Positions 26,296 to 59,600 of a DNA stretch of 64,000 nucleotides are shown one piece after another; within the stretch, counting starts at the first letter, position 1, and each line of letters opens with the position of its first letter. A program made the position numbers and the translations under genes. The stretch is taken from assembly GCF_000003815.2 (NCBI RefSeq), contig NC_049980.1:25502272-25566271 (forward strand). Reading direction: 5' to 3'. This stretch comes from Branchiostoma floridae (Eukaryota > Chordata > Leptocardii > Amphioxiformes > Branchiostomatidae). The notes below the pieces were generated by a model that saw nothing but the letters and a program-made list of their open reading frames with translations, was not told the origin of the DNA and did no database searches.

Positions 26296-26396
26296 GTTTT
26301 GTGGACATGTGAGCGCGTCCCTCGGTGTGCGTTCAAACAGAAGAGATTATTCTTCACCATATAGAAACAACCAGCCTGTAACCAGACACCGTAAAC
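26296..26396 (+). other. VCPIP1 5'UTR part of the coding exon
   Basis: A clear acceptor (CTTTTTACAG, ending 26295) opens the exon 101 bases before the ATG, so at least one noncoding exon lies upstream. A candidate donor is near 23060. Confidence 0.6.
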
Positions 26397-29300: not shown

Positions 29301-30536
29301 CAAGGGCATTTCCCCATTGGCCCTGGCATTGATGATGTCATCGCTCAGAACAAACAGACACGAGAAGCATATGATCCGAAAGCCTTCAGCCATGTCAAGG
29401 AAGCCTTGCATGTTGGTGGCAGTGGAGTTATCGTTAGTAAGTCTGAGGCCTTGAAAGTGAGAGCATTTGCAGGTAAGGGGCAAACCCTAGGTGGCACCTC
29501 TCAACCCCAACCCTCCACCAGTACTGCTACAGATGTGCCTGCAAGTGCTGCAGTCTTTATACCTGATGTAGTGCAGACTCAGAGTAGTGCAGAGGGAGCT
29601 GTGGCACAGCCACCTGTGGGTACAAAGCCTCAGCCAGTTGCCATGGAAGATGATGACTATTTCCTGGTGGAGTCAGGTGAAGAGGATGAGGGAGAGGAAG
29701 AAATTTCTGACAAAGATGACTCCTTATCAACTATGAAGAAAGCTCCAGGTGTGACTGTGATAGGCAGCGGAGCAGCAGCGGCTACCATGACGACAGAACA
29801 AGAGGCACTCATGGCCAAGTTTGCATTCACAGCCAGTGCTGCAATGCAGGCAGAACAAGAGGTCAACGAACAGGAAGAAGAGATTAAGGACTCAGGGGGT
29901 TTCAGGAAGGTTGAGATTGTGATTGAAGATTCAAAAGAACTTGCAGTTGCCATGGAGACAGATAGGCAAGAGGCCACAGGGGATGATGGGAAGCCATTGG
30001 AGGAGCATTCTGGAAATGTTTCTGAGGAAGTACCCAAAGCATCCGAGACTACTGACAAAAACAAACCAAAGACAACAGAAGCCACTGAATGTACTAGTAT
30101 GGACAGAAGTAGAACTGAGGGGAAAACAGGTGATTTGGATCAAGTTCAGGCTCAAAACGTATTGTTGGAAGAGGATACCTCGCAAGGCACGGAAGTGAAC
30201 AATACCCGAGACAAAGTTGCAGTAGTAGAAGCTGCAAGGACAGAAACAGAAATGATGGACACCAGTGCTGCTGAAAATACTGAAAGGGGAGCAGGTGATA
30301 AACTAGACAGCTCTCCAGAACATGTTGCAGTTGACGTGCCTACACAGGGTGTGCACAGAAGTGAACCAGTGAGTGAGGTCACACAGGCAAGAAACACTAC
30401 TGGGGATCAAAAAGAACCTGAGAAAAAGGACAGTCCCATGGAAGTAGAGCCAGGCAAACAAGCGGCTCAAGAAGGTGATGGAAGACCGTCTGGAGAAGGT
30501 AAAGAAGACGCTGGGGAGGCCATGGACTCCAGCTGA
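26397..30536 (+). CDS. VCPIP1: Deubiquitinating protein VCPIP1 (VCIP135)
   Basis: This OTU-family deubiquitinase works with p97/VCP and p47 in Golgi and ER membrane fusion after mitosis. The whole 1,379-aa protein is coded in one exon. A Cys4 zinc-ribbon-like site is at C18, C23, C38 and C41. The OTU domain follows, with IPIHADGDGHCLVHAISRAL holding the catalytic Cys (C186) and SSGRNHYISL holding the catalytic His (H321). Further cysteine pairs (CLTC, CSWCQG, CGCGFKHYWDG) and a ubiquitin/UBX-like domain (about 748-826, KVRVTTSEGK to GDKVTVDVLP) match the remembered human protein. After about residue 1000 the sequence becomes acidic and Glu/Thr-rich, ending EAMDSS; human is about 1,222 aa, so the tail is longer here. 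The ATG is the first in the exon and directly precedes the conserved zinc-site region. Confidence 0.98.
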   Translation: MLPRSKSRETYRVLSGHCPDQNCRAKLFFPAWDSSIECTDCGQRHQQSAIQNVEEVTNPDVALHNMLRNVLLSNTKPKKGADTVRVLGLSNYQCKLLSPLLTHYGMDKQSGKAKRLRDMNQPDTFDCVLLGDRAFQIAPEHVEIVGYGRDRSGSMQYLHDTLDAMKKVNDKEERLIPIHADGDGHCLVHAISRALVGRELFWHALRENLKAHFIKNLEQYKALFHDFIDSNEWDDIIEECDPDFTPRDGEPLGLRNIHVFGLANVLHRPIILLDSLEGLQSSADYSGTFVPGLIPPEKCKGKDGALNKPLCLAWSSSGRNHYISLVGIRGRPLCKLPMWLIPKLWGVPQDLLTKYVEFDSEQRCAIGGSRSLPETYIQRLARAMEDVFMEKYQVHPSVVSDMHHYVFKRTGVVGVQPEVVTEATQSAIRNERLYRCLTCDAVMEYSVGSDLLKRGGTLYQLAVRTHGKLQVGKNYHFPLQSLICKYDPVKDVLVPDMKMSRLTTCSWCQGTSVRLVCPDGSVVYLNGDRTHTAAENSQCGCGFKHYWDGKEYDNLPELIPVTLEWGGKTIQEKVYWFQYETDTSLNSNVYEVATALVHKHFPGEFGSERLVKCVVDVILQQTAKKEVYKPVSLEGMPGHEREGEPRQQDALDPSSPSKIILTGHKHKTIHKEELTMSEAERMVQRKITDKAAHEQKKKSDEMAKRRAEKELKQLKQQQAAAHQQSKPVAKVGPMVTTPPPRPSTPPTEKKVRVTTSEGKQVMLTLAISTTFQELQARIASELGVSEDRQRIRYGFPPRPLAPPKPGMEGEPVPLQHGDKVTVDVLPPPAGEGQEEGAGAAAKGAPMAVAGSPRRVQGMEASGASASQDPESALRDQLMNVLDQQLESNASSIDLQISSLSALAMLSGKDLWSFVQTMPQLFSREGVFTKKVGQDLGLADGKHCTLPSFPGKTFMFNGQAGRLELCLEPQGHFPIGPGIDDVIAQNKQTREAYDPKAFSHVKEALHVGGSGVIVSKSEALKVRAFAGKGQTLGGTSQPQPSTSTATDVPASAAVFIPDVVQTQSSAEGAVAQPPVGTKPQPVAMEDDDYFLVESGEEDEGEEEISDKDDSLSTMKKAPGVTVIGSGAAAATMTTEQEALMAKFAFTASAAMQAEQEVNEQEEEIKDSGGFRKVEIVIEDSKELAVAMETDRQEATGDDGKPLEEHSGNVSEEVPKASETTDKNKPKTTEATECTSMDRSRTEGKTGDLDQVQAQNVLLEEDTSQGTEVNNTRDKVAVVEAARTETEMMDTSAAENTERGAGDKLDSSPEHVAVDVPTQGVHRSEPVSEVTQARNTTGDQKEPEKKDSPMEVEPGKQAAQEGDGRPSGEGKEDAGEAMDSS

Positions 30537-33183: not shown

Positions 33184-35372
33184 CTACCCAATGACACTCC
33201 CATCGTTCTCTATTGTGGCATTCTGCGATGTCCATCCAAACGTAGTATGCGCGATGCAGGTGTACTGTCCAAAATCTGCCTCTTGTAGATGATAAATTGA
33301 CAGACGAACATTCATGTAGAGGGAACCATCAGAGTCTGTCCTGTGTGGGTTCGACAGTATGATATAGTTATAATTAAGAGGACAAAAAAAGTTCAATTAG
33401 TAGACTTTGTATGCCGTCTGGAAACAAGACACATATGACCAATGGCCAAGACATGTATTGTGTCTTAAATTTGAACAAGGAGGTTTTTAGCCTCCTTGAT
33501 TTGAACAATTGATTTGAAATCCTGTTTGTAAATCAGTAAGATAGAGGCGCTTTGGGCGAAAGACTTGTTAAGATTTTCTCCAAGCAGATGAGGGAGGTAC
33601 CCCTAAAGAGACATAGAAATTCATGAAACAAGCAAAGACAAACAAAAAAGTCATAAATTTCCTTCCCAGCTGTTGTGAGAGATCGCATACCTGCTGGTGC
33701 GGCGGAGGACCACTCTACTGCTGTTGTTCACGAAGGTGTTGTTCTTGACCCAGTACAGTTGAGGGAAGGTAGCGGGACCCACGACACCATAGGACGCCCT
33801 GCAGACAAACGTGGCGTTTTCGCCCACAACCTTCTGCAGCATGGGCGGATCCACAGGCTCCATGGAGGGCGGTGTGATGGAGGGAGGGTCTGGGGAGAGA
33901 ACCGTGATGGTTTGATACATTCAGAGAGGGTGACTGTTTTCGTTGGAATGGGGCCGATTGCATGCAATTTCTATTCCACGCTTCTTGCATGTGCGTAGAG
34001 GCACTTGAAAAAACATTTCCTAATCTGGTGCGTCTCGTTATAACAACTGTTAATCCACCTACTATTTCAATGCATTGCAATGTCATTGATCTGACATATC
34101 TAGCTTTTTCAATGACACATAACCTGTCTATCAACGTATCTACGCCTTCTACATTGTAGCAAATTGTAGGTCCATTTAATTGATGCCATATGACTGCATG
34201 TGTATCGCTTACTTGTAGCCTCCAGTTGGACATTTCCGACGAATGCGTGGGTCCCGTTCGTCATCTGACAGGTGTATGTACCAGCGTCCTCTTGCCGAAC
34301 TCGTGTGAACTGCAGCTGTTCACCTGCATCTCCGCTCTGTGTGATTTCGTCTGCGGGTGGATTCAGCTTGAGCGGAACGCCCTTGCGGTACCAAGTGGTT
34401 GTGTAACCATCCCAACACTCCGAGAAAGGACATCTGTATCATAATCGAGAAAAAGGGAAGAACGTCAACACACGTGTACATGTCTTTGAAAACAAATCCC
34501 ATTACAAAACTGAGCGACGCATCTCCGTATTCTACTCGAGATTTTACATATAGAACAGATCTATCATCTAAAAGAAATGTCGCACTACCTTAGCACCATT
34601 TGCTCTCCAACCGTTGCTATCTCCCAATGGATCTCCTGTATGTTGGTCTGCCAGTTGTGACAGGCGTCTCCATAGTCACCTGTTCAATGTATATTGCAAT
34701 TGCACTCTGGTTAGTCGAACAATGAGCAGTACATTCTCATGTGAAAACTTATCCTATAAGTACCATCCTCCGTAGTGACCGCTGGCTCAATACTTTCACG
34801 GAGTCCGTGGTTAGCAGACGAAATTATTGAGCCAGTGATCGCTAAGTTAAGAAGAAAACGTATAACTTTAAGTGTCACAAAATTTGCCTTTGATTTGATC
34901 ATATTAATTGAGAGCAGCACCAAGGACGTCATGATAAGACATCCTGTGTTTCAGAGGTCCGAGATTTGTTCAGCGCTGCGTAGGCGTGGAAACTGCCCTA
35001 CCAATATCATTATTGACATTACTACACCCTCCGATCCAGACTGGTCAAGCTGCCTTGCCCACAGTCCTTAGCACCCCCAGTTTGTTCTCTAGTTTCGCAA
35101 CTCAAGAAACAAACGAAAAAAAAAATCGATTAAATGAATTGAAGAGTCCTACTTGATATGATATAACATCATAATAGATATTTAGAGCTGCGGTCATTCT
35201 CTCAACAAAACTTACCGTAATAATCATAATAATCATAGCCGTGATCGTCGGTCGGGGGTACCGGTGAGGGAGCCGCATTAGCCAATAATGCCGCCGACAA
35301 GTTAGGACTCCCTGCCCAGAGGAACATCCAGGCACACATCAGCACACTGCTAGACGTTTTGGCGTTGTACAT
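33184..35372 (-). CDS. IL-1-receptor-like protein with two Ig domains, predicted secreted
   Basis: Five minus-strand exons join in frame: 35216-35372, 34589-34679, 34213-34433, 33691-33889 and 33184-33340, giving 274 aa. The first exon encodes a signal peptide (MYNAKTSSSVLMCAWMFLWA) and a Tyr/Asp-rich linker. The first Ig domain has CHNW, RCPF, TTTWYRKG and EDAGTYTCQMTNGT, a pattern like IL-1 receptor domain 1. The second has VVGENATFVCRASYG, FPQLYWVKNNTFV, LSIYHLQEADFGQYTCIAH, resembling IL-1R domain 3 (WWTANDT type). Several N-glycosylation sites are present. No transmembrane or TIR segment precedes the TAG. A weak donor overlaps the stop (ATTGG|GTAGTA) and the gap lies just beyond, so a longer receptor cannot be excluded. 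Exon structure is well supported; the family name is moderate. Confidence 0.65.
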
Positions 35373-36195: not shown

Positions 36196-38987
36196 CATGG
36201 AATAATTATGATACATGTAGATGGTTATCAAAAACAACAAGTAACTTTTAACATTCGGGACTTTTTCTTTCATAACAATGTATAGTTTACAGTATGTTAT
36301 AACACAGTAGATCTAGACTGGACTAGAACTATAGTTTACATACTATGGGTTTAACAGTTGTTGTTGCTTTTTATGAGCTTAAAAATTATTATTTAAGTAC
36401 ATAGAAGTAAACATTACAGAACATGAAGTCTGTTTTTGAGTTCACAATTGAAGATGTTAGATAAGTTATGGCCTGAAATTGGCCGTGGGCACTTTCTAGA
36501 AAAAATCCATGTTTTAAAGATAACCCACTTTGCTATAGATATTATTCGTATTCTTTTCTTCAGGATATTTTCGTTTATTGGCTGGTTTACCTTTCCCAGT
36601 ATCATCTCTTCAAAATCAATATAAGGGTTACTGGGGCTAAATGGTACAGAAGTATGTACTAAATTCCACAGGTTAGTTAGCCTTTTACATTCCAGGAACA
36701 TATGTTTATAGTTGTCAACATGACCACTGTCACATAATTTACATACAGGATCAATTACTTGACCATCTTCATCTTGTATTCTCCATTTGCTTAATTTCTC
36801 ACCACATGGTAAAATTTGATGAAGTAGTTTGTAATTAAGCTCTGCTATTTGTGTTTCTTTACATGAAGTTGTGCCTAGCATTTTCCAAATCTTCTTCCAA
36901 TTAAGTGAGTATATATCAAAATGTGTCTGCCATTTCTGTTGGCAGTTTGGAACTATAAATATTTGTAACATAAGGTTTTGGTATATCACAGAAGTTTTTG
37001 GAAAATCTAAGGCTGGTGTTTCTAACGTTTCTCTTTCGATACAACAATTTTTACGTATGGCTCTTTTTACAATGAGCAATTCACACATCCAGTTATGTTT
37101 CTTGGTAAGTTTTCGGAACACCTCTCTGTCACTTATAAAAGTACCATTTTGTAAAATATCCTGTATATAAACAAAACCAGAGTTAATCCAATGTGGGTAC
37201 AAGAGTGTTTTCCCCCCTGATACAATATGCTTGTTTCCCCAGATAATCTGGTTTGTGTCACAATTGCTTTTAGCTTTGTACCATGCATAGATAACTTGCT
37301 TATAAAAGAGGGGTACATTACACAGGTATTTGTCTTCAATGCAACTCATTTGAAACACAAAATTCAAGTCTATATCTAAGGAAGATAAGTAGTGTAAAGG
37401 GATATATCTCCAAGAACCCTTACCATTAAGTAAACGTTTAACCCAAGACGCCAAGAGAGCATCTTTCACACTATGTATGTCTAGCATTTTTAAACCTCCC
37501 TGTTCATAGTTGCCAATGAGAGTTTTCCGTTTAATTTTGTCCTTTTTTCCACTCCACACAAAGTTTAAAAAGGCAGTATTTAGCTCCTTTAACACTATTG
37601 TTGGTGTTGGAAGAATGTTCATTACATATGTTACCTTTGCAGCTGCCAATGCCTTTACAATGGTTATTTTCCCAAATAAAGTAAGATTCCTTTGGCACCA
37701 TGTATTGAGAACTGTTTTAACTTGTTTTACCTTGTCATCCCAGTTTAATTTCATTAGTTGTTCCTTGCTATGACCAAAATTTACACCAAGTGACTTAATT
37801 ACAGAAGGCCATTGGATACCTGCTATTTCATCTTTTCTGTGTTTCCATATACCTAGCCACAGTCCTTTTGTTTTAGCTTTGTTTAAGTTGGATCCAGCCA
37901 CATTAGAGAATGAGCTAAGGCACTCAAGTGTTTCATACAGTGAGTCTTCAGTGGACAAGAAAACAGTGGTATCATCTGCCACCTGGCACATCTTAATTTC
38001 TGCTTCATTTACTGTGACACCTTTGATATTTTGGTTATTTTGTATGCTATAAAATAGGATCTCTGCTACAAGAAGAAACAGTAGCGCACTTAATGGGCAT
38101 CCTTGTCTTATACCCCGCTGCAGTTGTATACTAGCGGCTTTCCAGCCATTGTTGATGACTGAGGCCAGACAGTCAGAATACATGATCTTTACCCAGTTTA
38201 CAAAATTTGGGCCAAAGTTAAATTTCTCTAATACCTTAAACATAAAATTGTGCTCCACACAATCAAATGCTTTCTCAAAATCTATGAATAGTACAATACC
38301 TGTCTTATTTTTGGAGTCACAGAAGTCAATTATATCTTGAATTAATCTAACATTTTGTCCTATGAAACGTCCTTTTATGTAAGCACACTGGTCCTTATTT
38401 ATTAGATCTTTCAGGAGAGGTTTAATTCTATTTGCCATGACAAAAGCAAGTATCTTATAATCGGTATTTAAGAGGCTTATAGGTCTCCAATTGCTAAGTG
38501 ATTCCATGTCTCCATTTTTGTGTATCAATCTTAGTAGGGCCTTTCTGAAGGAGGGTGGTAGTTTTCCTTCACTGAGTGCATTGCAAATAACAGAGTGCAC
38601 TAAAACTCCAATTGAAGGCCAGAACAGTTTGTAAAATTCAGGTGGAAGCCCATCAGGGCCAGGTGTTTTACCTTGTTTCATGCTTGTTACAGCTTCTTCA
38701 CACTCATGTAATGTGATTGGTTTGTCACACTCCTGCTTTTCTTGTTCAGATAGTATGTTTGGAATATTGTGGACAATTGTGGCAACCATGTGGTGTATAT
38801 TGGTTATACATAATAGCCTGTATAAGTACATGAGAGAAATTCTTATATAGACAATGATACTTCTTCCATGCGCATTACCTATTGTGTATTTCACTAGTAC
38901 TTCAAATTACTCCATGTACAATAGTAGCTTAGATACTCTGTTGTTGACAAATGTATTATTTGTTTTACTAATAAAGCCTTGAAAAAA

Positions 38988-39019
<32 letters not shown>

Positions 39020-39020
39020 C
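36196..39020. mobile_element. L1/Tx1-type LINE with 5' inversion (twin priming)
   Basis: AACCTTGTAGTGTT occurs at 36182-36195 and 39021-39034, a perfect 14-bp target-site duplication. The right part (about 38785-39020) is plus-sense 3'UTR with AATAAA at 38970-38975 and a long poly(A) to 39019. The left part (36196 to about 38785) is in the opposite orientation and carries the reverse transcriptase frame. One duplication flanking two opposed segments is the structure left by twin priming of a single insertion. The intact long frame suggests a young copy. Confidence 0.92.
36414..38894 (-). CDS. LINE ORF2 fragment: reverse transcriptase and C-terminal domain
   Basis: The 826-codon frame has no internal stop. 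Native LINE sequence begins near NIPNILSEQEKQEC (about 38765); the first ~40 residues probably read antisense 3'UTR across the inversion. RT motifs are PGPDGLPPEFYK, ISLLNTDYKIL, motif A LFIDFEKAFD, motif B RQGCPLSALLF and motif C VADD (residues 305-308; YADD or FADD is usual). Near the end, CKLCDSGHVDNYKHMFLEC is the Cys/His motif typical of L1-like ORF2 C-termini. The N-terminal endonuclease is absent, so the copy is 5'-truncated and cannot be autonomous. Confidence 0.93.
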   Translation of the reverse strand: MKYTIGNAHGRSIIVYIRISLMYLYRLLCITNIHHMVATIVHNIPNILSEQEKQECDKPITLHECEEAVTSMKQGKTPGPDGLPPEFYKLFWPSIGVLVHSVICNALSEGKLPPSFRKALLRLIHKNGDMESLSNWRPISLLNTDYKILAFVMANRIKPLLKDLINKDQCAYIKGRFIGQNVRLIQDIIDFCDSKNKTGIVLFIDFEKAFDCVEHNFMFKVLEKFNFGPNFVNWVKIMYSDCLASVINNGWKAASIQLQRGIRQGCPLSALLFLLVAEILFYSIQNNQNIKGVTVNEAEIKMCQVADDTTVFLSTEDSLYETLECLSSFSNVAGSNLNKAKTKGLWLGIWKHRKDEIAGIQWPSVIKSLGVNFGHSKEQLMKLNWDDKVKQVKTVLNTWCQRNLTLFGKITIVKALAAAKVTYVMNILPTPTIVLKELNTAFLNFVWSGKKDKIKRKTLIGNYEQGGLKMLDIHSVKDALLASWVKRLLNGKGSWRYIPLHYLSSLDIDLNFVFQMSCIEDKYLCNVPLFYKQVIYAWYKAKSNCDTNQIIWGNKHIVSGGKTLLYPHWINSGFVYIQDILQNGTFISDREVFRKLTKKHNWMCELLIVKRAIRKNCCIERETLETPALDFPKTSVIYQNLMLQIFIVPNCQQKWQTHFDIYSLNWKKIWKMLGTTSCKETQIAELNYKLLHQILPCGEKLSKWRIQDEDGQVIDPVCKLCDSGHVDNYKHMFLECKRLTNLWNLVHTSVPFSPSNPYIDFEEMILGKVNQPINENILKKRIRIISIAKWVIFKTWIFSRKCPRPISGHNLSNIFNCELKNRLHVL

Positions 39021-44200: not shown

Positions 44201-47200
44201 CAGTAGTAGAACATGTGAATTTTGAGATCCACATTTGTGGAATGTGTTGTGAGTGTTTCTCCATGTTGATGTTGACAGGCAGAGCTGCAGGCTCTGGAAC
44301 CTGGTGAAGACACACCTAAACCACAGCCCTCCCCTCAACCTCCCAGAGCTGGACAGGTGAAATAACTATATTAAAAGATGAGCAACATAGTTAAACGACA
44401 CTTTGAATGAAAGAGAAAGCTAACTCAGTAGTAACTGGAATAAATGCAGTTTATCTCAAGAAATGCTGAAATATTTTGATTTATGTAGTTTTTGAGTGTC
44501 ATCATGAGTGTCAGTGTAATTCTGAAAACTTTTGAGTGTGATTGTGTTTTAACCTAGCATCATAAGCATCAAATGCAGTAGAGTGACTAGAACTTTTGAA
44601 GTGTTGCCAAAACTTGTTGTAGACTTAGTCCACATATAGTTTGATATGACCTCACATAGAACAAATATTAGATCCCTCCCAATAGCCACATGATAGGCGG
44701 TAATGCTAGCCTGATGTTTGAATGAAGCTGTTTCCATGTGCATTAGCCATCTGGACTACAAGCACTCCTGGAGGAGAGGAAACAGATGTATGAGGCTGCC
44801 AAGGCAAGTGCACTGGCCAAAGGTGATGGGTCAAAGGCTAGAAGATATGACAGGGGACTCAAGGTAAAGACAGGCTTTATTTCTTCCCAGGCAAACTCTC
44901 TTGGGATCTTGCTTTATTCTTACTGAATCACTGCTATTTGCTGTAATGCTGCTTTTTTCAAAATTGCTTAGTTGACGACATGTACTTTACATTGATACAA
45001 GATAAGATCAAAAGATGGATATACATGTACTAATCTGAAAACAGTTTTATCATTCCAAGTTTCTCATTTTTCTCTACCCCACTCCAGACCATAGAAGGCC
45101 AGCTGAAGGCAGCTAGAGCAGGGAAGCCTGTGGCAGAGGATGAGATCCCCCCACCTGTAGCTGTGGGAGGGGCCAAAGTCTCTCAGCCTGAGCCTGCCCA
45201 GCCTCCACCTGCTCAGCCTACAGTGCCACCCATGCAGCCTACAGCAGCACCCATGCAGCCTACTGCAGCACCTTTACAACCTACAACAGCACCCTTAAAA
45301 CCCACAGCAGCACCTATACAACCTACAACAGCACCAGTACAGCCACAGGTTAGGTGTACTATGTCTAACAAATAGCATTACATATTGTTATTGCTCCATT
45401 TAATGTTACTAACATAGTGATACATGATACAAATGTACGGTTGTCTTCTATGCATTGAAAGCCAGACAATGCTTAACATACTGTGATTGTCAATTATTTA
45501 CTGTTGATAGCATGATGGAGAAAGCCTCTCATGCATTGTTTTCTTGTCTAAAGCAGGGCCATTTTACATTCCAAAAGTTCAATGATATGTGCATAATGTT
45601 AAGGACTGTTCTGTGATGTATCATGCTAGTACAGTTATCAGGCGCGGATTTAGGGGGGGGGGGGCGCACCCGGCGCGCGCCCCCCCTTTGGCTGGACCCC
45701 CCCAAAAAAATTCAGCTGGACCACCAAAAAAAAGGAATTCTACAAAGAAATCCAGAAAATCAGCGAAAGTTGCAGCGGAGCGGCGACAATACAAAGCCGC
45801 TAACCAACAATGCCAAGGCGCACTCCTCCCGCTTTTACTTTCTCATTGCGTCGGTCTTTGCGGGCATAGCCAGAATGTTCCGTAACCAGAACGTTGGCAA
45901 TACTCCCGCCCTCCTTCGGAACTCGCTTATGTTCCATCTGACTCTAATATTGTTATTATATTTGTTATTTTGGTACCCTATTAGCCCATGTGGACTGAGC
46001 GACGCAAGATACAATATTAAACATTCATTCATTCATACTGTGACGGTAAATGTCAGGAGTAAAAATGTGTCAAACTTACGATATGTCTCCGCTAAGGGAC
46101 TTGACGTTATTTACCGGGGGGAGGGCTGATGCAAAATGGGTCAGGTAAAAAAACGGCGATCTTTTCCACTACACATGTACGATATTTACACAAAAGAAAC
46201 TAAATTAATGTTCTACTTGGAAGAGACTTGGGTACATTTTAGCGATATCGTGACGAAAACCGCTTCAATACTGCTGTATTAAATCATTCCAAAACGGGAG
46301 TTATTTCGGCCAACCAACAAACTTGCCGAAAAATGTTCGCGCCATCATATGCATGATTACGTCATATGCACGCAGCAGAGAGCCCGCTGTCACGAAAGTA
46401 AACATCGTAATGTTTTATCCCGTTGCCTTCCGTGAACCATTCCGTCTACAAAGAACCGATGCACACAGGATTGATATTGATACCAATTTTAGTTGCTATA
46501 GTCTTCGTAAACTTCGTGCGAACATGGAATTACACGACAGAGGCGGCTGCAGCAAATTTCTTATGGGGAGGGCGAACTATATTAACGTAATCCTAGGGGG
46601 TCCGGGGCATGCTCTCCCGGGAAAATTTTGAAATCTTGACTATCTGAAACGATCTTTCCTAACTTTTGATGGACAAATTTGCTGGCAGACTAAGTTAAAC
46701 AGCCTTTCTAGTAGGGTTTTTAGCTTATATTATTAAGGGCAACGACGCCCCCAACGTATTTTCACGATTTCGAGCGCACGAGCCGTCGCAAGGTAGGTCT
46801 GGAGAAAAATGTTGAAATTTGAACCCTCTGAAACAGGATTTTCTGCACTTTAAGGGATAAACTTTGCTGGTAGACTATGCTAAATGTAATGACATTTCTG
46901 TCAGGGGAAAATATTTTTGATGGCGACGAGCGCCAGAGCGTCGTGGGCGCCGGACGCGCAAGCCGTCGCCAGGCACGTCCAGAAAAAAATTGAAATCTTG
47001 ACCACCTGAAACTTCATTTCCTGCATTTCAGGGGCACATTTTGCTTGTATTTCTAAGGCCACTTAGGCAATTTTTTTTTCAATAGCCCTCCCCCCGGCTC
47101 AAGACATGTTTCGATGGCCGTTCCCCCAGGCCAAAAATATGATATCAGTGTTCGTTCGTTTATTATATTTGTTCAGCCCTAAAAGTCAGTGTTGATTCGT

Positions 47201-50200
47201 TGGGTATTTTTGCACAGAAATAGCTCTAAAATGCACCAGAGAGCCTCTTTATTTTAAAAAGTTCTCGGGGGAGGCCCCCCAAACCCCCCCAACGAGAGGG
47301 GGGGGAACCCCCCTCTCGTGCTCTCCCCCCGCGCAGCTACGCTGCGCATTCCGTTCGTGGCCTTCGGCCACGACCTGACATGCAACAGCATATGCGCCCC
47401 CCCTTTGCAAAATCCTGGATCCGCCCCTGGTTATTTAGCAATTTTGTACTTTTGGAGAGACTTAGCTGATCATTTTGGTATGATCCTGTGTTCCTGTATT
47501 GTAGGTAGCAGAGGCAACGCCACAGGAGCCTGTTCCTATGGAAACAGGTATGTTTACACGTCTGATACAAATATTTTTGAACAGCACGTAACGTAAGGTT
47601 ACCAGTTTACGGTCGATTTGTGAATAATGCCGTTTTATGGAAAGCGCGCAGGCCGGGAAGTGAAAAGCTGTCCTTAATTGGAAGACATTAAAGTCGGTCT
47701 GCGTCAAGCTCTGTGTGGCATCATATTTCTTCTGAGGATTTCTCGCCGTACGAGCGTCTTTAATGAACAAGTCTGCAGCCAAGAATTCTTCCAGGGTGAC
47801 CAATTTACGGTCAGTTGGGTGTTTCTCCATTAAGGTTATTTTTCTAAAGGACATATATCTGATCATTTCCCTTTTAAAAGTTCCCCACGTAGTTCACTGA
47901 GATAACACAATGGATAAATTGTTTACATATGGCCATGCCGCCACTTTGCATCGCCGCTAAACGTTATCGGTAAGTCATCTTTGCCCCAACAGAACGCCAC
48001 TCAGAGCGCCATGCTGTTCGACAACTTGCACAATGCCACTCATAATAATGGCAACGCATTTGGATGTTGTTATCACCTGTATAGATAGGAACTGGCCTTG
48101 AAATGCGTTCAGTATACATGTGGCTTGCTCACGCCGTGCCCTCCCCACATAAATTAGCCCCAACAGCGCCCCTTGCGACAATTTCTCGCTCTCCAGTGCA
48201 CCAAGCTTTAACGGGCAAGTCACGTGATGCAACATGGCGTTCGAAAACTACCCGCTCGGCGAGGACAGTCACTTGTTTTTATGCAGTTTATAAGAGTTTC
48301 CTTGGACAACATACATAAAATCACCATGCATTCTTGAGATAAGAACTCCAGGTTTGGTTTGAGGTGATGTTTCAATTCATAAAGAGTTTGTTGGATTTTA
48401 AAGAGGGGACGAAAATAGCTGTCTAGAATTACGATCAGAACCGGGTCATCTGTAATAGTGTTGTGCGCACTCAAGCGTAAATGTAAATTGTTGTCGGACT
48501 TTTCAGACGTGATTTGCTGGATACAAAGTTATAGGATAAATAAGGCAAGACACATAGATGATATAAACGTACTTCTTTCCTACTCAAGAGAATTTTTTTT
48601 TTTACAATTGACCTCGAAGTCTGCATCCACCAATAAGTGACCGTAAACTGGTCCTGCACGTAAACTGGTAACCTTACGTTACCATTCTGTGTGTACAGAA
48701 TATTCCCGGAGTGAACACCCAGTTGCATATGTGTGTGTGCCTAAGTAGCGAGTAGTGTCTCAATGGTAGGGATTAATGACCCCCTCCCCACTGTTGGGCT
48801 GGTCGCTAGGATTTTGCAAGGCTATTGCTTATAAAAGTATACAAAAGAAAGTCATAACTATAGAACCCTGATTATATTGGTTTATAAATTGATATGCACC
48901 CTACTTAGAAGGTCATTATGTTGAAGTTGCACCATGCATTGATAAGCCACATTTAAAAAAAAATATGTGATTGGTAACTTTGCAGTTATGTTTGATGCAA
49001 CATGCTGATGATATATTTTCCTTCTGTTGGACAGATTCAGAAGACAAGAAGAAACTTGCTGTTATCAGAACTAGGAGAGATCAGTACAAGTTAGCAGCTC
49101 AGACGGCCAAGAAAGCTGGGGACAAACAGGCCATGGTCAAATACTTCAAGACTTCAAAGGTGTGGAAAGCATGTCTTTATGTATCGTGTATACCATATGA
49201 GAGTACATTTAATGTATATCAAAAGCCCAGTAGTACATTATTTCCAACATAGGTCTAAAGGAGTGGTATACATAATTTTGAGAACATATCATACATAGAG
49301 TCATTATTAGACTTGAGATCTTCAATTTAAATATCTGACAATACTGACAAGTGGAAAGGAAAAGATTTAAAAATCTGGAATTGTTCATGAGACAGAGCAG
49401 TGTCAGACATTCATCAATTGTTCATGAGATACTCTACACAGACCAGTATCAGACATTCTTCCCTTCCCATTGCAGCAATTTGATGCAGTTATCAGTGCAA
49501 TAGAGAGTGGCCAGCCTGTGGACCTGGCTAACATGCCACCACCTCCACCCTCACCACAAGGTATGTTTGAATGAGGCACAATGACCACAAAGTTTTGCTT
49601 AAGCTAATCATCTTGAGTATCCATGACCTAGTTTCATCAGATTGGTACGTCACTGAATTAAGAAACTTTTCTTACACGACCATTGCTTTCTACCACTCCA
49701 ACATTTCAGTGATCATCTGTCACCTTCCTCGGGGAAATTCTGATCTTTTAGAATAGATTTAACTTAGGTTCTAGGGACAGTTAATTTGGTAAATGTCCAA
49801 ACTTTTATACAGATGATATACTCTGTCGGTCACGCTAAATGCCTTATCCCAAAGAGATTGTTTTTTGATTGTACATGTATGACTTTGGTGTGTCTACTTC
49901 AGAGGTGTTAGCACAAGCCTCCAAGCAGCCTAGCTCCATGCAGCAGGCTTCTGCACCCCTGGCAGCTGCTCCACCCAGCACCCAGGAAGCACCTGCAGCT
50001 TCCACAGGAGTGCCCCCTCCCCCTAAGTCTGTGCTGGAGGCCCTGCAGCAGAGGATGGACAAGTACAAGTCTGCAAGTGACCAGGCCAAGGCAGAGGGGA
50101 ATGGCAGTAAGGCTCGCAGGATGGGCAGAATAACCAAAGTAAGCTGCTGGCCCTTTAAGAATGTTTTTTGTGAGTGTTTGAGAAATTTGACTCCTCAGGA

Positions 50201-50687
50201 TTAAAAAGAGTTGACTAAGAATCAACACATGTCAGTCAGTTGCACTCATAAAGTGTTATGTCGGTCAAGTATTTATATAGTGAAGATGATTAGATTGCAA
50301 AACCTCTTCAGAATTTGAAGTTCTATTTACAACAATGTCAATTTTAGTTGATGTGTGACACCAAGAGGATATTATATTGCTTTGGCTTTATAGAGACATA
50401 TGTTGTTCCTAGTTTACCTCGTTTAAAGAGGGGCTAAATATCATTTTTTTTAACTTTTCCTTGTGTGAAAATGTATTAGAACATGCTTTACCTAAATTAC
50501 AGCAATATCAGGATGCTATAAAGAATCACAAGTTGGGAAAGCCTGTGGACTTCAACGAGCTGCCCTGCCCTCCCGGTTACCCTCCCATCCCGGGGATGAG
50601 GGCTGCACAGGATGATGGTGCACCAGACGTACCTGGCATTTCTGTTGTACCACCTTCTCAGCCTGCACAGTCTGCAGCTCAGCCAAG
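41235..50687 (+). CDS. CC2D1A: CC2D1 exons 1-11: acidic N-terminus and DM14 repeats 1-3
   Basis: Exons: 41235-41294, 42412-42529, 43992-44089, 44279-44356, 44747-44863, 45088-45348, 47505-47547, 49035-49159, 49476-49560, 49903-50138, 50503-50687. All borders are GT/AG and phases agree. DM14-1 is in exons 5-6 (LLEERKQMYEAAKASALAKG), DM14-2 in exons 8-9 (RTRRDQYKLAAQTAKKAGDK, then SGQPVDLANMPPPP) and DM14-3 in exons 10-11 (LQQRMDKYKSASDQAKAEGN, then GKPVDFNELPCPPGYPPIPG). Exon 6 ends in seven-residue QPTAAPM-type Pro/Thr repeats. Exon 11 leaves two bases (AG), so it can join either exon 12 or exon 13. Confidence 0.96.
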
Positions 50688-53600
50688 GTAGGGCTTTGTC
50701 TTTCTTACATGTGAATTGTGACACAGGAATGTGGAGGCAGCATGTTTGGGTAGCAGATTTCCAGGATCATAGTACAGGGAAAAGTTCTTACACCTAACAT
50801 AGTTGAATGAGCATTAGGTGCTTCTGTGAGACGTAGATGTAGAATGTTAGGGCCTTACCTGTCTCACATTCTTTCTGTCACTCTTTCCAGTCCCCCATGC
50901 TTCATATAGATATCTATCTGCAATTACATCTGGATTTTGAATAGGTGGAATCTCTGTTGGTCTGCCATTGCCTAACTTTAGTTTTATCAAGAACTTCCAT
51001 AGATGCTCTGATATGCTGTTATACCGTTAGTATTTTTGTGAATGTTCTTTAAAAGTGTTATGTTGGAACTGTCAGGCTTGATATGTTGGAAGTGAAAGAA
51101 ACTGATGGGGTGGAGACATTTGGTAATGATGCGGATGAAAAGCTTGCAGCCATACCCGAGGAAGGTTTCCCTGAGGTTGAGCTGGCTGATGTGCAAAGAG
51201 GAAACATGTTAGACACAGAAACAGAGAAGGTTGCATCAAAAGCAGTACAAGTTTCAGCAAATGACTTTCAGCCTTTGCCTGCCACCATAAGCAAGGCACC
51301 CTGCATTGAAAATATGGAGACAGAGACACCTAGCCCTGAGGTGAAAGAAGGAACACTTGTTGAGATTGAAGAAACACCCAATGCTGATGCAAAAGAGGTG
51401 CCTTCCCCTGTGGTGAAAGAGGCACCTGTGGCTGAAGTCAAAGAGGCACCTATCATAGAAGACAAACCCATCCCTGAAGTCAAAGAATCTCCTATCACTG
51501 AAGTCAAAGTGTCACCTCCCCTAGAGGCTAAAAAGGCACCTGTCACTGGCGTCAAAGAGGCACCTGCTATTGAAGATGAAGTACCTGCTGCTGAAATAAA
51601 AGAGGCACCTGTACCTGTAGTCAAAGAGGCACCTGTGGTAGAAGACAAAGAGATGCCCATCCCTGGAATAAAAAAGACATCTGTTACTGAAGTCAAAGAG
51701 GCACCTGTTGCTGTCAAAGATGTACCCACACCAGGAGTCAAGGAGGCACTTGTTGCTGATGAGTTACCCACCCGTCAAGTCAAAGAGCCACCTGTTACTG
51801 AGGCTAAAGAGGCACCTGCCATCGAAGATGATGTACCTGTTGCTGAAATGAAAGATGCACCTGTCACTAAAAGCAAAGAGGCAGTTTTCGCTGAAGTCAA
51901 AGAGGCACCTGTCATTGATGTCAAAGAGACACCTGTCACTAAAGTCAAAGAGGCACCAGTCTCTGCAGTGAAAGAAGCTTTTGCCCCTGAATTCAAAGAG
52001 GCACCTGTCATTGAAGATGAAGGAGTTCTTGTTGCTGAAATGAAAGAGCCACCTGTCACTGAAGTCATAGAGCTGCCAGTTGCTGAGATGAAAGATGAGG
52101 ATAAAGAGGTATCTGTTACTGAAGTAAAAGAACCCCTTGCTCCTGAAGAGGTACTTGTCACAGAGGCTAAAGAGGCAACTACCCCTGAAGCCAAAGAGGC
52201 ACCTGTTACCACAGTCATACCCACAAGGCTACCCACCCCTAAAGTCAAAGATATACCTGTTACTGAAGTAAAAGGAGCTCTTGTCCCTGAAGTTAAAGAT
52301 GCACCTGCCATTGAAGACAAAGAAACACCTGTCACTGAAATGAAAGAGGCACCTGTTGCAGAAGTCAAAAAGTTATCCACCCCTGAATTCAAACAGGCAC
52401 CTGTCACTGAAGTCAAAGAGGTAGCTGTTGCTGAAGTCAAAGAGGCACCTGTCCCTGAAATAAAAGGAACACCACTAAGTGAAGCAGCTGATCTTGATAA
52501 GACAACTGCGGCTAAGATCAAAGATGTTCCTATCACTGAAGCAGAAGAAACATCTGGGACTGAGCTTCAAGAGATCCCTTTCCCTCAGGTGGAGACTCCT
52601 GTGATTGAGTTAAAAGAGGCACCTCTTGCAGAGGTAAAATATACACATGCCACTGGGGTAAAGGAGACACCGCTGACTGAGCTAGAAGACACTCCTGTAC
52701 CTAAGGCCCCTGTTCCTGTGCTAAAGGACACTCCTGTCATGGAGATTGAAAAGGCATGTGTTACTGAGGGCAATAAGACACCTGGCACTGAGATGACTGA
52801 TTCACCTGCCACCAAGGTAAAAGAGGCACCTGGCACTACTAAGATACCTGTGCCTGTGACAAAGAAAGCACCTGTGAATGTGACACCAGTTAATAGAAAA
52901 GATGCTGAGGTGAAAGAAACACCTCATGCTGAAGTTATAGGTAGTACACCTACCAGCATGGTAAAAGAGGTGCCTGTAACTAAAATTCCTGTCCCTGTCA
53001 ACAAAAAGACACCTATTAGTGAAGTGAAGGAGAAACTGGTCACTGAGATGAAAAGTGCATCCGTCCCTGGCAAGACACCTACAAGGGATGTTGAAAAAAT
53101 ACCTGTCCTTGGTACTGAGGTAAAAGAGGCTACTACTGTAGATATAAATGAGGTGCCTGTCCATGGAGTAGTTGTGAAACAAGCTAGAGTACCTGAAGAG
53201 CAAGTCACCTCCAAAACTGAGGTAGTTCTACAAACAGAGAAAGCTGAGAAGAAAAAAAGTCCAACAACTCCTAAGAAAGTCACATTTGAGGCAGATATGA
53301 GACAGCCATCTCCAGCAGAAGGTAGCAAGGTAAAGGAAGTACCGAGCCCAAAAGCCACACAACAATTGCCTTTGGTTAATGGAGACACAACTGAACGTCA
53401 AGAAGCTGTGCCAGCAACAGGGTAATCTGCCTATCGAGCAACTTGTCGGTTCTGCTTTTTTCAAATTGTCATTCACAAGGCTTTTGCTGGGGTCAGTGTT
53501 TTGGGGGTTATTTCTGCTTCTTCACTTCTGTGTTGATAGTGTTTTCATACAGGATACCGGAGATAGAGGCAATGAAAGTGCCCCATCTGACAAGCTTGTG

Positions 53601-56600
53601 TGGTAAAGTCTTCTCTCTCAAAACAGGCACAGTCTGTTCAGCCCATAAATTTTCTTCTTTTGGTCTTGTTTCTTTTATGGTTGTTTTTGGTGATACATGC
53701 TTTTGTTTATCTGCGCATGGTTTCCAGACTGTGTGAGCGTGAACATGTGAAATGCAGCATGTGCACGTTCACACAAGGTCCATGTATTTGCAGTGCGGAT
53801 GTAGAGTTGGGAGGGGACAGTGATGAGGTCATTACCTTGCCTGGCATAAGCCCTGACCCTGTCCCCAGTGGCAGTTCTTCTGAAGACAGGTGTGGAACCA
53901 GGTGTCAGAAGATATGACAATATTACAGTGTGGCTACATTGTTGAACTTGGTCATTGGGTGCCAGCTTTCTAATGCTTTTCGCAGTTTTATGCTGTTTTT
54001 CTTTCATGTCTACCATCTGCAGTTACATGTAGATAGTGTGAGCTTGACTCTAAATGCTAAACACTCTATCTAAACTGTATTGCCTTTTATTCATCTTTAG
54101 CTTCTCTTTCTATACAAGACCCTGGGTAGTAAGTTGTTGTAAGGCTTTGTAATATGGAACTTAATGAAACTAGTATACTCAATTGTAATAGTATAATGTT
54201 CTCATGAGTACTGTTGCTAGTTTACCTTTTCACAGACTCACAGCCATTAGGAATGATTTTTGAAGCGTCTTCAAACAGCTTATTACCTGAAATGATATCG
54301 GTCAGGCTGAATTTGTCTTGCACCAAGATGTTTGCAAATAACATCTTTTTTTGTTGCTTTAGTTTGATTCGTAACTTCATATTTTGTTGTGTTGTTTCAT
54401 TTCTTAGTAAACAATCAGCCAAAGTACTGACACAAAAGTTTTTATTTCCAGTGGTGCTGCAGGTCAAAGGTCAAGGTCAAAGTCACCACAACCTCCAGGA
54501 AGGTCAAGATCCAAGTCACCACAGCCTGCCCCTAAACAACCAGTAAAGAAATCACCCAGTGGAGTCAAGTCTAGAGGTGATTTGGGATTGCATATTGTGA
54601 ACATTGTTTGGTGATTTATCAATGATAAAGACTGATTACTAAGTACCATGATTAAATTCTTCAATTGGAACCTTTTTCAACTAAAACAATTGTTTTTTTC
54701 TACGTCAGCTCAACAACAGTTAGAGTTCCTCGAGGAGAGACAGAAGCAGTTCAAGATGGCAGCACTAAAAGCCAAGAATGAGGGAGACATGGAGCATGCC
54801 AAAACTCTGCTAAGACAAGCCAAGGTATGTCTGTCCTATAGCTTCACTGAAAATCACCTACTTTTAGTGTTTCAGATGCATGACTGAGAGGGGTATGTGT
54901 GACTGTTGACATTGTATTGAGTACAGGCATGTGTCATGTAGGATGGGTTTAATGAAGAATAGCCAAATTGTCTGCCTATTGAAGAGAAAAGACAAGGTTC
55001 CTCGATGAGGTTAGACATCCAGGTAAAAAGATACGTCAAATAGCAATTACTCAAGCAGTTGGATATGATTTGGAAAAGGTATCAGATAGCATCCGTTACT
55101 GGCATCAAGAAAAATAAAGGGTGTTATCTGAAACGTCTGATTGTTTCCCAAATCATACCAGTTGCTTGTGTAATTGCTATTCGGCGTAAAAAAAACAAGG
55201 TTGTGTTGCTCAAACTATTATCAATATGTTAAACTTTTGCAGGGCTTTGACCCCATGATTGAGGCAGCTCAGGGTGGACTGCCTGTTGACCTGACTAAGG
55301 TGAGAAACACACAGAGCCTGTCACACTGAGTAATCATAGTTTAAATTAGTACACATTTTGTAGGCCATTGCAAGACATTTTATGTCTTTGGTAAAGATCA
55401 AATTTGAATCATTTTCCCACATATATTGGCATACAGGACAATCCCCATCTCTGTCTCTATAACCATTGGGCCACACAGATGCCCAGGAGGCTTAGTCTAC
55501 TGGTAGTGGTGTTCAACTACCATAGTCTCATGAGTGCTGAGTGCTAAGCAGGGAAAATACATTAAATTTTGTAGTATGTACCGTTTTTACAGTCTTTTGT
55601 GTAACCTGGCCAGGGCTTGAACCGCAACCTCCTGAATGCAGTAATTGTTTTAGGAATTACATATGATGTTCTCAAGTACATTTATCCATTGTCATTTTAA
55701 TTTCCATACATATAGATCCCATCCCTGCCGTCCGAACCTCTGGATGTAGACGAGTTTCTGGAGTCAGCAGAGGAGGCAGACCCAGCTAAGATCGGAGACT
55801 CTGAGGAGATGTATGCACGACTTGCTCACACTCTGAAGAAACAGATCGAGACCTGCAAGACCAGCTCAGAGCAGTACACCCACCTAGGAGATCTGCAGGA
55901 GGCTACCAAGTAAGGCACACACTCACTGAAACTCAAGTGCTTTTAACACTTCAGGCATTCAACCAGATCTGTAAGCTGCTGTAGGCAATAGCCAAAATAT
56001 ATACCCTAGGGCTTTACCTAACAGACTGCACATATTTTCAACCAACCATTGAGCATGTTTTTGTTACCTGTCATATGCAAGTGGTTATTGAGCTTGGACC
56101 TCAAATCACAGACTGTAGGTTGTAGACTACAAATGTATAACTATAATGAAGGTTGAAATGTCTTGTACGTGTATAAATAAATGTCATTGCCATCTCTCCT
56201 TACTTTTGCACATTTATTCATGGCTTAGAAATTGGGACATTTTAAGATTGTTCAGAGACTTAAAAGACAGACTTTATCAGAAATGAATGGGGCCAACAGT
56301 AGTTGACAATATCTCTAATGCCCCTTTTCTCTTCAGACTGGAGAGGATGGGCCAGGCCTCCAGACAGGACCTGGACACAGTGAAGAACGCCCACAACCAT
56401 GGCGACCCCCCGCCCAGGTTCCATTATGAGACCAGGACCTTCAGGCTTGTCAAGTAGGCACATGCCTTTTTATAGCTGAAGTAGAAGAGAAAAATTAAGT
56501 ACATCGTACATGCATGAGTGGTATCTATGCAGAATTCATAAATGCTATGTTGATGATAACTACAAGAACCTGTGGTTCTTTGTATAGGTTTTGAATGACT

Positions 56601-59600
56601 ATTGAAAGTCTCAAAATTTCACAAGTACAATTGTGCTATTCTCCTACAACTATGGGATCCTAATCTGCAGTAGATGTTAGTACATTATGATATAATAACC
56701 AATGTGTAATAATGCACAACTTGTATAGCAGTTCCATGTTGTCATCATTTTGATCCCTGTTAACATTACCATTCTTATTTTCAGGATCAACACAGAGCTA
56801 CTTGACAGTGATCTTGAAGTTTCTGTACTCAGGGGTGTGGCCTATCCCCTGCCTTCAGGGATATCTGAACCTAAGGACCTGTACACCTATGTCAAGTTTG
56901 AGTTGCCTTATCCTCATGTGAGTACATTTCTCTGGGGATGAATTAACATTGGTTTTTTTATGAGAATGAAATTCTTATTTAAGTTTCATTGTTGGTAGCA
57001 GGAGGATGTATTGGACACAGAAAGCCTTTGTTGAATAAACTGTTTTTATTTCAGGATAAACCTCAAGAGTCCTCTACATCTACATTTAAGGGTGATGCCA
57101 ATCCAGGTAGCCATTACTTTATACAATTTTCTTTGATGCAATTGTGATAGATATCCATATAGTAAGGTTCTTTAGGCACAACCAAGGAGTACTTACTTTC
57201 GGTTTCGGTGTCTATCAGACACCATCATCACCGAAACGTTGGAAGTAAGTATTCCTTGGTTGTGCCCAGGGCTCTAGCCAGCCAGCTCCGTCAGCCAATT
57301 TCAATTGTCGTGAAAACCGCGAAAATTCATTTTCCCAATGACACTACAAAGTAGTAAATGTTGCCATTGACACCTTGAAAAACGGGTTTTAATGAGATTA
57401 TCGTATGCGAAAGAGCGCCGACACACATTGTCAACAAGCATAACAATAGCAAAACAAACAGTGTGTGGCTTTTACAGCCATGGACGGCGTCCCCAAGCCG
57501 CCTGTAGCTTCCACCAAGGATTTTTGTCCGTCAAGGTTGACGGATTGATTTTAAAATTTTTCTGTCAGACGCAGCAAATTTCCGTCAATTGACGGAAAAA
57601 CGGACGCTGGCTAGAGCCCTAGTTGTGCCTACAGAACCTTACTATATGAATAATTGCCAACCTGATGAAGTTATTTACGGATGTGATAAATATCCTTTTG
57701 AACCCCTATTAACATTCCAATTCCACATCAACAAAACCAGACCTAGCTCATTTCTACCTTGAAAAAGTATTCTTATCAATGACAGGCTGTTTTGATGATG
57801 ATTTGTTCCAGAGTACAAGCACACAGAGAAGTTCAGGATAGACAGGAAGGCCAGGTCCTGGCTGGGGACTGTCAAGAGAAAGGCCATTAAGTTTGAGGTC
57901 TTTTACGAAAGGTGAGTTGTAATAATTTTAGTGGCTATCATTGTGTGTAATGTACATGTATGTAGTAGTTGCACTCATTTAATATTCTCTGTACTGATGC
58001 ATATCTTTCATAAATATATTCTAAGATTTGGTAAGTTTTCTTGTTGGCTGCTGTCCTCAGTATGAAGTCATATAACATTGCTTCAATTTTAGTAAGTGCT
58101 TTTATATGACCTGAGCTAGATTATCATCATGATGGTTTTATGGAAACTCAAGCTTATTAGTTTTCTGTGATGGAATTGAAGGTCATTGTGGACATATATA
58201 ACAGTCAACAACTGAACAGCAGATGAGTGACTAGTGGACTTCAATCCTTTTGTCTTTCTCAGGGGATTCCTGAGGAGTGACAAGTCAATGGGAGAAGCAC
58301 AGCTCAAGTTGGAGAATCTGGAGAACAAGGCAGAAGTTCACGAAATCATAGATGTAAGTATACATCTGTTTTAAATGTCTTTATACAAACATCATCATCT
58401 TCACTGTATGTCAATGCTTAGCCCTAAGGTAGGCTGTCATTGTCTTGCACAGTTTTTTGTTTGATACAGATAGAGGTCTGATAACAGTGCAATTAAGGTA
58501 GATGATCTGGGGCGGGGACTACAGTATCTGTGCATTACTCCTAATATGATCATGATTAATCAGTTTCCATTCACTCAAATTTGGCTTTGCATGTACAACA
58601 TGTACCATGTAAAATGTGCCTTGAAATGCTTTGCGCTTTACCAAGTATAACCAGTATTGCATGTTCTCCTCTGTCCCAGTTGAAGGATGGCCGTAAGACG
58701 TGTGGTGGAAAGCTGGAGGTGAAGGTGAGACAGAGGGAACCGCTGACAGGGAAGCAGGTGCAGCATGTGCAGGAGAAGTGGCTGGTCATCGACTCTGTCA
58801 AACGCAGACAGGTGAGGGTTCTGTGGTCTCGGTTCTGTATAAGTGGTCTCAGTTGAAAGACTTTCTAAAACTACTGCTAAAACTCTAAGAAAAGGAATGT
58901 GTTCTTTTAGCTGCTCAACATTGCACTAACCTATTCTATGGTGCAAGAGCTCCATGTACTCTCCCCTTTATTCTACTGTCAGAGGTATTTCCCTATTCAT
59001 CTGTTTTGTGTATTGGTGTAAAAGAAATCTGAAAAAACTACATAGCACTGTTCTCAAGCTATGAAACTGACTCATCAGTTTCCGTGACAAGTCATAAAAG
59101 CTCGTAAATGTAACAAACTACTCAGCATCAAGTTTTCTTTTCCCCCTTCCCCTCTCCTTCTCTCATTACCCTTGTCACTACCCCTTCTTTATTCCTCTTT
59201 TCTCCATTCTCCCCATCAGTATGTCCCAAAACATGACAGTCCACAGAAGGCACAGCCCAAACCAGAGGAAGCTGGATACTGTGTGATATGCTGAAGTCAT
59301 GTCTTACACAAAATTATATAGCTCTATCATCACATGTATATTCATGGTGCTTTTAAAACATGTACATGTATGTACTGAGTGTTTGTTTTGTCAGCATGAA
59401 ATCAATGGTATTCTATATTGAGATAGGCTTTTTAATGAAGTCTGTGCATTTGTAGACATCATATCACTAGCATATCGTTAATTGTGCAGTAGACAAGGGA
59501 AATGCAAATATTTGTTGCAAGAATGTCAGTTATTACAAAGTACTAAAATGTAATACTATTCATTTATGGTAACACTCTGCAGTTCTGCAATGTCCAGAAC

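Follow-up and report, generated by a model that had tools for sequence, protein, structure and literature searches.

The closest known precedent for the exon considered here is, by analogy, the proline-rich exon of skNAC, a splice form of alpha-NAC that Yotov and St-Arnaud reportedly described in 1996 and that is said to be muscle-specific. The proline-rich exon of skNAC is very large. Exon 12 of the lancelet CC2D1 gene resembles it in being one large frame-neutral exon that codes for a proline-rich tract in an otherwise small, widely expressed protein. However, the two proteins and their repeats are unrelated, and while inclusion of the skNAC exon is muscle-specific, exon 12 is known here from genomic sequence alone. 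A second point of comparison is the PEVK region of titin, whose exons are short (means of 76 and 93) with PEVK ratios of 0.84 and 0.79, according to the accessible part of PMC6469411. Long internal exons coding for disorder between structured domains, mostly unconstrained, are described in the available sections of PMC9825244 as a general trend in eight eukaryotes.

The protein family itself is comparatively well characterized. As set out in the available text of PMC11275157, Lgd family proteins are positive regulators of the ESCRT machinery whose C2 domain binds phospholipid and whose odd-numbered DM14 domains bind Shrub/CHMP4 by charge through a KARRxxR motif, on which the Shrub-binding DM14s are reported to depend for their function. 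The available portion of PMC13199796 describes CC2D1A as a negative regulator of CHMP4B, so that the sense of CHMP4 control differs between these reports (positive for Lgd, negative for CC2D1A); it further presents the human DM14-4/coiled-coil/C2 fragment as a cohesive unit with conditional C2 dimerisation. In the available portions of PMC11275157, PMC13199796 and PMC9320689, a tract like that of exon 12 is not mentioned for human CC2D1A or Lgd; linker terms are absent from the portion of PMC11275157 and are used only about tags in that of PMC9320689.

The stretch of DNA analysed here (the window) comprises 64,000 nucleotides of Branchiostoma floridae, and all positions refer to it. On its plus strand, 41235-63947 is the coding part of the animal CC2D1/Lgd gene, as identified from the splice borders, the reading frame and the domains of the product. 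The main model, hand-built from splice sites and then translated, consists of 29 exons that join in frame from ATG to TGA with AG/GT borders and no internal stop, giving a product of 1,784 aa with exon 12 and 1,002 aa without it. Four DM14 domains and one C2 domain were found in the product with Pfam. DM14 (PF21528) was present in each of four fragments searched, with 83.3, 37.0, 73.8 and 34.9 bits against a cut-off of 24.6, and conversion of the fragment positions places the four domains at 126-181, 270-323, 376-430 and 550-602 of the skipped protein; C2 (PF00168, 32.1 bits) lies at 714-827. Structures from the family support the assignment. The human CC2D1A structure 9vhm, which comprises DM14-4, the coiled coil and C2, aligns to residues 544-867 with an E value of 8.7e-76, and the Lgd DM14-3 structures 5vny and 5vo5 match residues 371-433/434. 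A further PDB match is the coiled-coil/C2 fragment 6ei6, which is Lgd according to the accessible part of PMC13199796; the 79-residue chain 7zrv, labelled by its depositors as a designed binder, also matches. The motif KARRxxR occurs as KARRYDR at residue 148 in DM14-1 and as KARRMGR at residue 398 in DM14-3, and nowhere else in the protein. Four DM14 domains with KARRxxR in the odd ones, and a C2 domain behind a coiled coil, are the features that the lancelet protein shares with CC2D1A, CC2D1B and Lgd.

A first gene model, ending at the 59220-59294 exon and giving 897 aa when exon 12 is skipped, was replaced by one with a chain of six further exons. The 59220-59294 segment may still be an alternative last exon of CC2D1: exon 23 (phase 0) joins it in frame and its acceptor is good-looking. 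It ends after 24 codons with EEAGYCVIC and a stop, presumably with the look of a Cys-a-a-x terminus, and AATAAA follows at 59984. A search for the DM14 family across the 513-Mb genome (431 contigs) returned three exon-level matches, all within the CC2D1 gene. This is weak evidence that the genome contains no second CC2D1, as the search scores the best candidates only and did not pick up the exons for DM14-2 and DM14-4 in the CC2D1 gene itself.

Exon 12 (51076-53421, plus strand) is a giant symmetric coding exon of 2,346 nt, preceded by AG and followed by GT, with phase 2 at both ends; the second-longest coding exon of CC2D1 measures 261 nt. It codes for 782 residues (469-1250). Upstream lie exons 10 and 11 (49903-50687, in which 50139-50502 is an intron), which carry DM14-3 with its KARRxxR motif and the 5vny and 5vo5 matches, and downstream, after intron 12, exons 13-15 (53794-54824 with their introns), which encode a linker rich in Ser, Arg and Pro followed by the start of DM14-4. 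The insert begins 38 residues past DM14-3 and ends about 80 residues before DM14-4, so that no domain is broken, and about 75 residues separate it from the region further downstream that matches 9vhm. It thus lengthens the linker between DM14-3 and DM14-4 from 119 to 901 residues. The preliminary description of this DNA had already proposed an open exon of this size and phase between DM14-3 and DM14-4, whose omission joins exon 11 to exon 13 in frame to give 1,002 aa. The 29-exon chain, the rebuilt model and the Pfam fragments (376-430 and 550-602 of the skipped protein) confirm each of these points, and its coordinates and numbers were right wherever they were checked. It had also stated that vertebrate CC2D1A and CC2D1B have only a short linker at this place. 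This fits the human CC2D1A total of 951 residues, with DM14-4 at 491-539, as given in the available text of PMC13199796, and is a judgement from size and position. By the same source, the human protein of 951 residues compares with 1,002 aa for the lancelet protein without exon 12; with exon 12, the lancelet protein differs by 782 extra residues between DM14-3 and DM14-4.

The DNA of exon 12 was found at one place in the 513-Mb genome, in a search from which simple repeats and very common words are excluded, and blastn and tblastn at E 1 found no related sequence elsewhere in the 64-kb window. Its translation gave no match to the PDB at E 0.1. A Pfam match to PI3K_p85B was rejected, with 13 bits against a cut-off of 27.

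That exon 12 is coding is well supported by several properties of the sequence. The used frame contains no stop codon, against 48, 92, 6, 73 and 14 in the remaining five. A codon score for which the 28 remaining exons and the introns served as training sets is +0.466 per codon in the used frame and ranges from -0.037 down to -0.852 in the five alternatives. By part, the in-frame score is 0.33 for the head, 0.58 for the array, and 0.42 and 0.35 for the two parts of the tail; with the three plus-strand frames tried per part, one further frame is weakly positive (0.16), in the array. At the stop rate of the introns, the odds of 781 open codons would be about 10^-20, a figure that ignores the stop-free repeat unit, which eases openness. 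In the head and tail, the used frame is the only open one among the three plus-strand frames. Long open stretches occur on the minus strand as well, for example 263 codons at 51775-52566 and 157 at 52924-53397, as would be expected from a repeat unit that is stop-free in that orientation; over the whole exon, the minus-strand frames score -0.22 to -0.67.

The pattern of insertions and deletions points in the same direction. When 51380-52490 was aligned to the 24-base unit with codons ignored, 14 indels were found, half of which (7/14) are multiples of 3; the other seven, grouped by eye, fall close together in three clusters with sums of 6, 6 and 9. Extending the alignment to 53060 gave 28 indels, 13 of them multiples of 3 and the other 15 in close groups, again made by eye, each of which adds up to a multiple of three. 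Shuffled sequence gave 865 indels, of which 186 are multiples of 3. As the sums are frame-neutral, the reading frame of exon 12 has been kept. The ratio of non-synonymous to synonymous polymorphism (pN/pS) among the 43 complete units was dropped as a sign of protein-level selection on the repeat. Its in-frame value of 0.61 (bootstrap 0.53-0.71) compares with 0.56 and 0.94 in the shifted frames and 0.62, 1.01 and 0.86 antisense; because one out-of-frame reading is lower and one antisense reading nearly equal, the ratio does not discriminate and carries no frame-specific signal.

Together with the in-frame junctions, the open frame and codon score support the earlier view that exon 12 is a genuine coding exon of CC2D1. 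It could instead lie outside the CC2D1 mRNA, either in a separate transcript or as a first or last exon served by a different promoter or poly-A site. A TAA in frame overlaps the exon 12 donor, so that read-through would end the protein there, and there are stronger donor-like and acceptor-like sites both within the exon and next to it. Against this, the phases of exons 11 and 13 are matched exactly at both borders, and intron 12 contains neither AATAAA nor ATTAAA; the explanation is very improbable.

The repeat within exon 12 is distinct and diverged. Tandem Repeats Finder (TRF) places it at 51416-52466 on the plus strand, with a period of 24, 44.2 copies and 59% matches; the consensus is AAAGAGGCACCTGTCACTGAAGTC (KEAPVTEV). 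At the protein level, the octapeptide motif is K-E-[A/T]-P-V-[T/P/A]-E-V. Residue identity within the exon is 0.244 at lag 8, 0.205 at lag 16 and 0.186 at lag 24; outside the multiples of 8, lags up to 40 give 0.02-0.13. An eight-position profile loosely covers 633 of the 782 residues in 114 whole or part units, 43 of which are complete octads. Its score of 899 bits compares with 231-273 for 10 shuffles; the margin is optimistic, since the fit was made to the exon and was not repeated for the shuffles. The commonest residues along the octad are K (63/74), E (51/80), A (38/87) or T (20/87) and P (63/82), followed by V (46/78), T (34/81) or P (21/81), E (57/76) and V (40/75). A looser period-8 pattern reaches about residue 1130, and there is little or no period in the head of the exon (to about residue 540) and in the tail (from about 1130). 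The statement that the exon consists mostly of 24-bp units thus holds as to the repeat, which TRF, the lag-8 identity and the octad profile all find, but slightly overstates its share, as the TRF array accounts for 1,051 of 2,346 nt (45%). Growth by tandem duplication of a 24-bp unit with later divergence is the best explanation of this sequence. Complete units share 45% of their residues and 65% of their bases (mean pairwise) and distance between them matters little; the array therefore looks old, with no recent homogenisation.

Such an array could also have grown neutrally, by minisatellite slippage in a linker exon free of constraint, the growth being tolerated since the linker is disordered anyway; it would then have no function of its own. 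The general trend noted in the available part of PMC9825244 favours this possibility. Exon 12 resembles the long internal exons described there in its size, its place between domains and its disorder-type composition; it differs in being far longer than the next exon of its gene (261 nt) and in being built by a recognisable tandem repeat. The divergence of the complete units (45% protein, 65% DNA) and a pN/pS without a frame-specific selection signal are likewise as neutral growth would leave them. On the other hand, the frame has stayed open and its net indels frame-neutral despite considerable divergence, and the K, E, P and E of the unit are conserved, a pattern that shared descent alone could leave. 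Neutral growth is a possible but rather doubtful account of the exon.

The composition of the tract is PEVK-like, as had been proposed, with P, E, V and K making up 54% of the exon and 62% of the array, or 64% and 74% when A is added. The PEVKA ratios of 0.642 (exon) and 0.744 (array) are both above the 0.54 threshold of PEVK_Finder. Exon 12 thus shares with titin PEVK its high content of P, E, V, K and A and its repeats; its ratios are below the titin means of 0.79 and 0.84 reported in the accessible part of PMC6469411. Further, titin PEVK is spread over many short exons of a sarcomeric giant protein, whereas here a single 2,346-nt exon of octad units lies in a DM14/C2 protein. The exon encodes 96 prolines (12.3%), with a median proline-free run of 6 residues and a longest of 33, which lies in the head; there is no Trp and one Tyr. 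The frequent prolines and the scarcity of Trp and Tyr speak against long helices or a folded core. By the charge-hydropathy rule, exon 12 falls slightly on the folded side (0.453 against a border of 0.439), a value put down to its valines. The TOP-IDP scale calls nearly all of exon 12 disordered but also 52-91% of each DM14 and 65% of C2. On this composition, the tract is probably disordered. With generic scaling constants, a chain of 901 residues is estimated to span about 32 nm against about 10 nm for one of 119.

The tract could serve as a scaffold and not as a spacer, if its repeated phosphorylatable [S/T]P sites and a putative phosphatase 1 docking motif added kinase and phosphatase control. 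Among 15 short linear motif patterns (one void, one a plain Tyr count), only SP/TP is clearly enriched in exon 12, with 28 occurrences against 12.6 in shuffles and none of 500 shuffles reaching 28. This excess follows from the unit itself (K-E-T-P), however, and a composition shuffle breaks the repeat. The CDK-type pattern [S/T]PxK is not enriched (2 vs 1.6), and the patterns for 14-3-3, SUMO, EB1 and LC8 are absent or below chance. Near the C-terminal end of the tract, in the non-repetitive tail, KKVTF (53273-53287, plus strand) adjoins SPTTP. We take KKVTF to resemble the RVxF docking motif of protein phosphatase 1, as a lead only; the two overlapping matches compare with a shuffled mean of 0.40, and the probability of at least two is 0.066. 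Taken together, a scaffold role is improbable.

The exon 12 donor, AGG|GTAATC, is the weakest of the 28 in the gene, with a leave-one-out score of 1.87 against 3.19 for the next, whereas the exon 11 donor (10.33) is the fourth best. The acceptor of exon 12 is the 10th weakest of 28. Among all sites of the gene, 299 of 1,489 GT outscore the exon 12 donor and 105 of 1,603 AG outscore its acceptor. Stronger sites also occur within 50688-53793, for example donor-like at 53329 and acceptor-like at 53728, 50891 and 52589; use of the donor at 53329 would cut exon 12 by 92 nt and shift the frame. Such a weak donor may also mean that the end of the exon is doubtful. The border at 53421 was kept because of the exact phase fit and the open, coding-like frame that runs up to it. 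A 52-nt candidate exon near 53554, judged by eye, would break the frame and was rejected. Intron 11 (50688-51075, 388 nt, plus strand) and intron 12 (53422-53793, 372 nt, plus strand) are close to the median intron of the gene (389 nt). The Rbfox-type pattern GCATG occurs in them three times, at 50740, 53715 and 53757, against about 1.15 expected, an excess that is not significant (P 0.08); TGCATG is absent from both, and three other splicing patterns are not enriched. Symmetric phase was set aside as evidence for a cassette exon, being weak in a gene in which 9 of 27 internal exons, exon 12 among them, are symmetric.

The weak donor hints at regulated inclusion and, read from the gene sequence, is suggestive only; whether inclusion is regulated is about an even question. 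Exon 12 might also be real and constitutive, in which case every CC2D1 of the animal would carry the long linker, with no splice switch, as an over-grown joint between domains. The acceptor is ordinary among the 28, the flanking introns are of typical length, and the sequence contains no direct sign of skipping. Further, exon 6 (45088-45348, plus strand) bears in its 3' part, the linker between DM14-1 and DM14-2, heptapeptide units like PTAAPxQ in translation, for which TRF gives a 21-bp period at 45227-45335; a second linker of CC2D1 has therefore grown by repeats. Against constitutive inclusion stand the weakness of the donor and the fact that skipping keeps the frame and gives a product close in size to human CC2D1A (951 residues). 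It remains a tentative alternative, on the doubtful side.

Our main reading, to which we give a probability of about one half, is that exon 12 is a bona fide exon of CC2D1 that, when spliced in, tethers the CHMP4-binding part of the protein to DM14-4, the coiled coil and C2. This reading is not clearly better than the constitutive and neutral ones. The view of the preliminary description, of a lineage-specific cassette exon that works as a spacer, is reasonable and a proposal in all three respects. It starts from the position of the exon at a joint, with DM14-1 to DM14-3 before it and DM14-4, the coiled coil and C2 after it. The preliminary description had suggested that the tract could separate the ESCRT-III-binding repeats. 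It would not separate them from each other, as the KARRxxR-bearing DM14-1 and DM14-3 both precede exon 12, but it would separate them from DM14-4 and C2. Splicing-in would place a 782-residue, proline-punctuated chain rich in Glu, Lys and Val between the half that captures CHMP4/Shrub and the half that binds membrane and dimerises, and would extend the joint from 119 to 901 residues with neither half altered. As a flexible tether, the long isoform may allow membrane-held C2 units to reach CHMP4 over a wider volume and may loosen the coupling of the two halves, while skipping would yield an ordinary compact protein. From the anatomy we infer that a spacer uncoupling the two parts is the most economical function; the steps from mRNA inclusion and its regulation to disorder and a tether role are likewise ones that we infer. 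A more far-reaching version is a long shot: a tissue-specific "giant CC2D1", in place of the compact chaperone of CHMP4, would be an extensible tether, about 30 nm across with a contour of about 300 nm, that couples membranes or dimers to distant ESCRT-III.

To our knowledge, a splice-controlled switch of ESCRT-III regulation of such a kind is known from neither vertebrates nor flies. If exon 12 is used, it would be a natural experiment on the distance tolerated between the CHMP4-binding repeats and the membrane-binding half of an essential ESCRT-III regulator, and another case of the skNAC principle, in which one large frame-neutral repeat exon remakes a widely expressed protein. If it is constitutive or neutral, it would be a striking yet ordinary example of a linker that grew by tandem duplication. 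A long CC2D1 isoform may well be among the automatically annotated gene models of the public genome. In the open-licence literature, no paper on CC2D1 or CC2D1A of lancelet, amphioxus or Branchiostoma was found, and the one paper that came up was a tenascin paper that names CC2D1B as a lungfish neighbour. Searched there as text, KEAPV gave two matches, unrelated by title; a search for amphioxus tandem repeats, alternative splicing and disorder gave two sea-urchin papers among the matches listed, and one for a CC2D1A cassette exon gave no CC2D1A paper among the best 8 of 1,612 matches.

Several other features of the gene and the window were observed in passing. Intron 6 contains a repeat-like insert at 45640-47430 whose C/G-rich ends look, by eye, like mutual inverted copies. 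In intron 20, an insert at 57160-57650 begins with AAGGTTCTTTAGGCACAACC and ends with AGTTGTGCCTACAGAACCTT, which by eye look like the terminal inverted repeats of a small DNA transposon. Upstream of CC2D1, an 830-codon open frame with a reverse transcriptase domain (36414-38906, minus strand) adjoins an A-rich run at about 38980-39020 and is a retroelement, and a minus-strand open frame at 34109-34438 contains an immunoglobulin domain (Ig_3, 32.3 bits, cut-off 30). Finally, an uninterrupted stop-to-stop frame of 1,384 codons at 26382-30536 (plus strand) is VCPIP1/VCIP135-like, with VCIP135_N, OTU and OTU1_UBXL domains.
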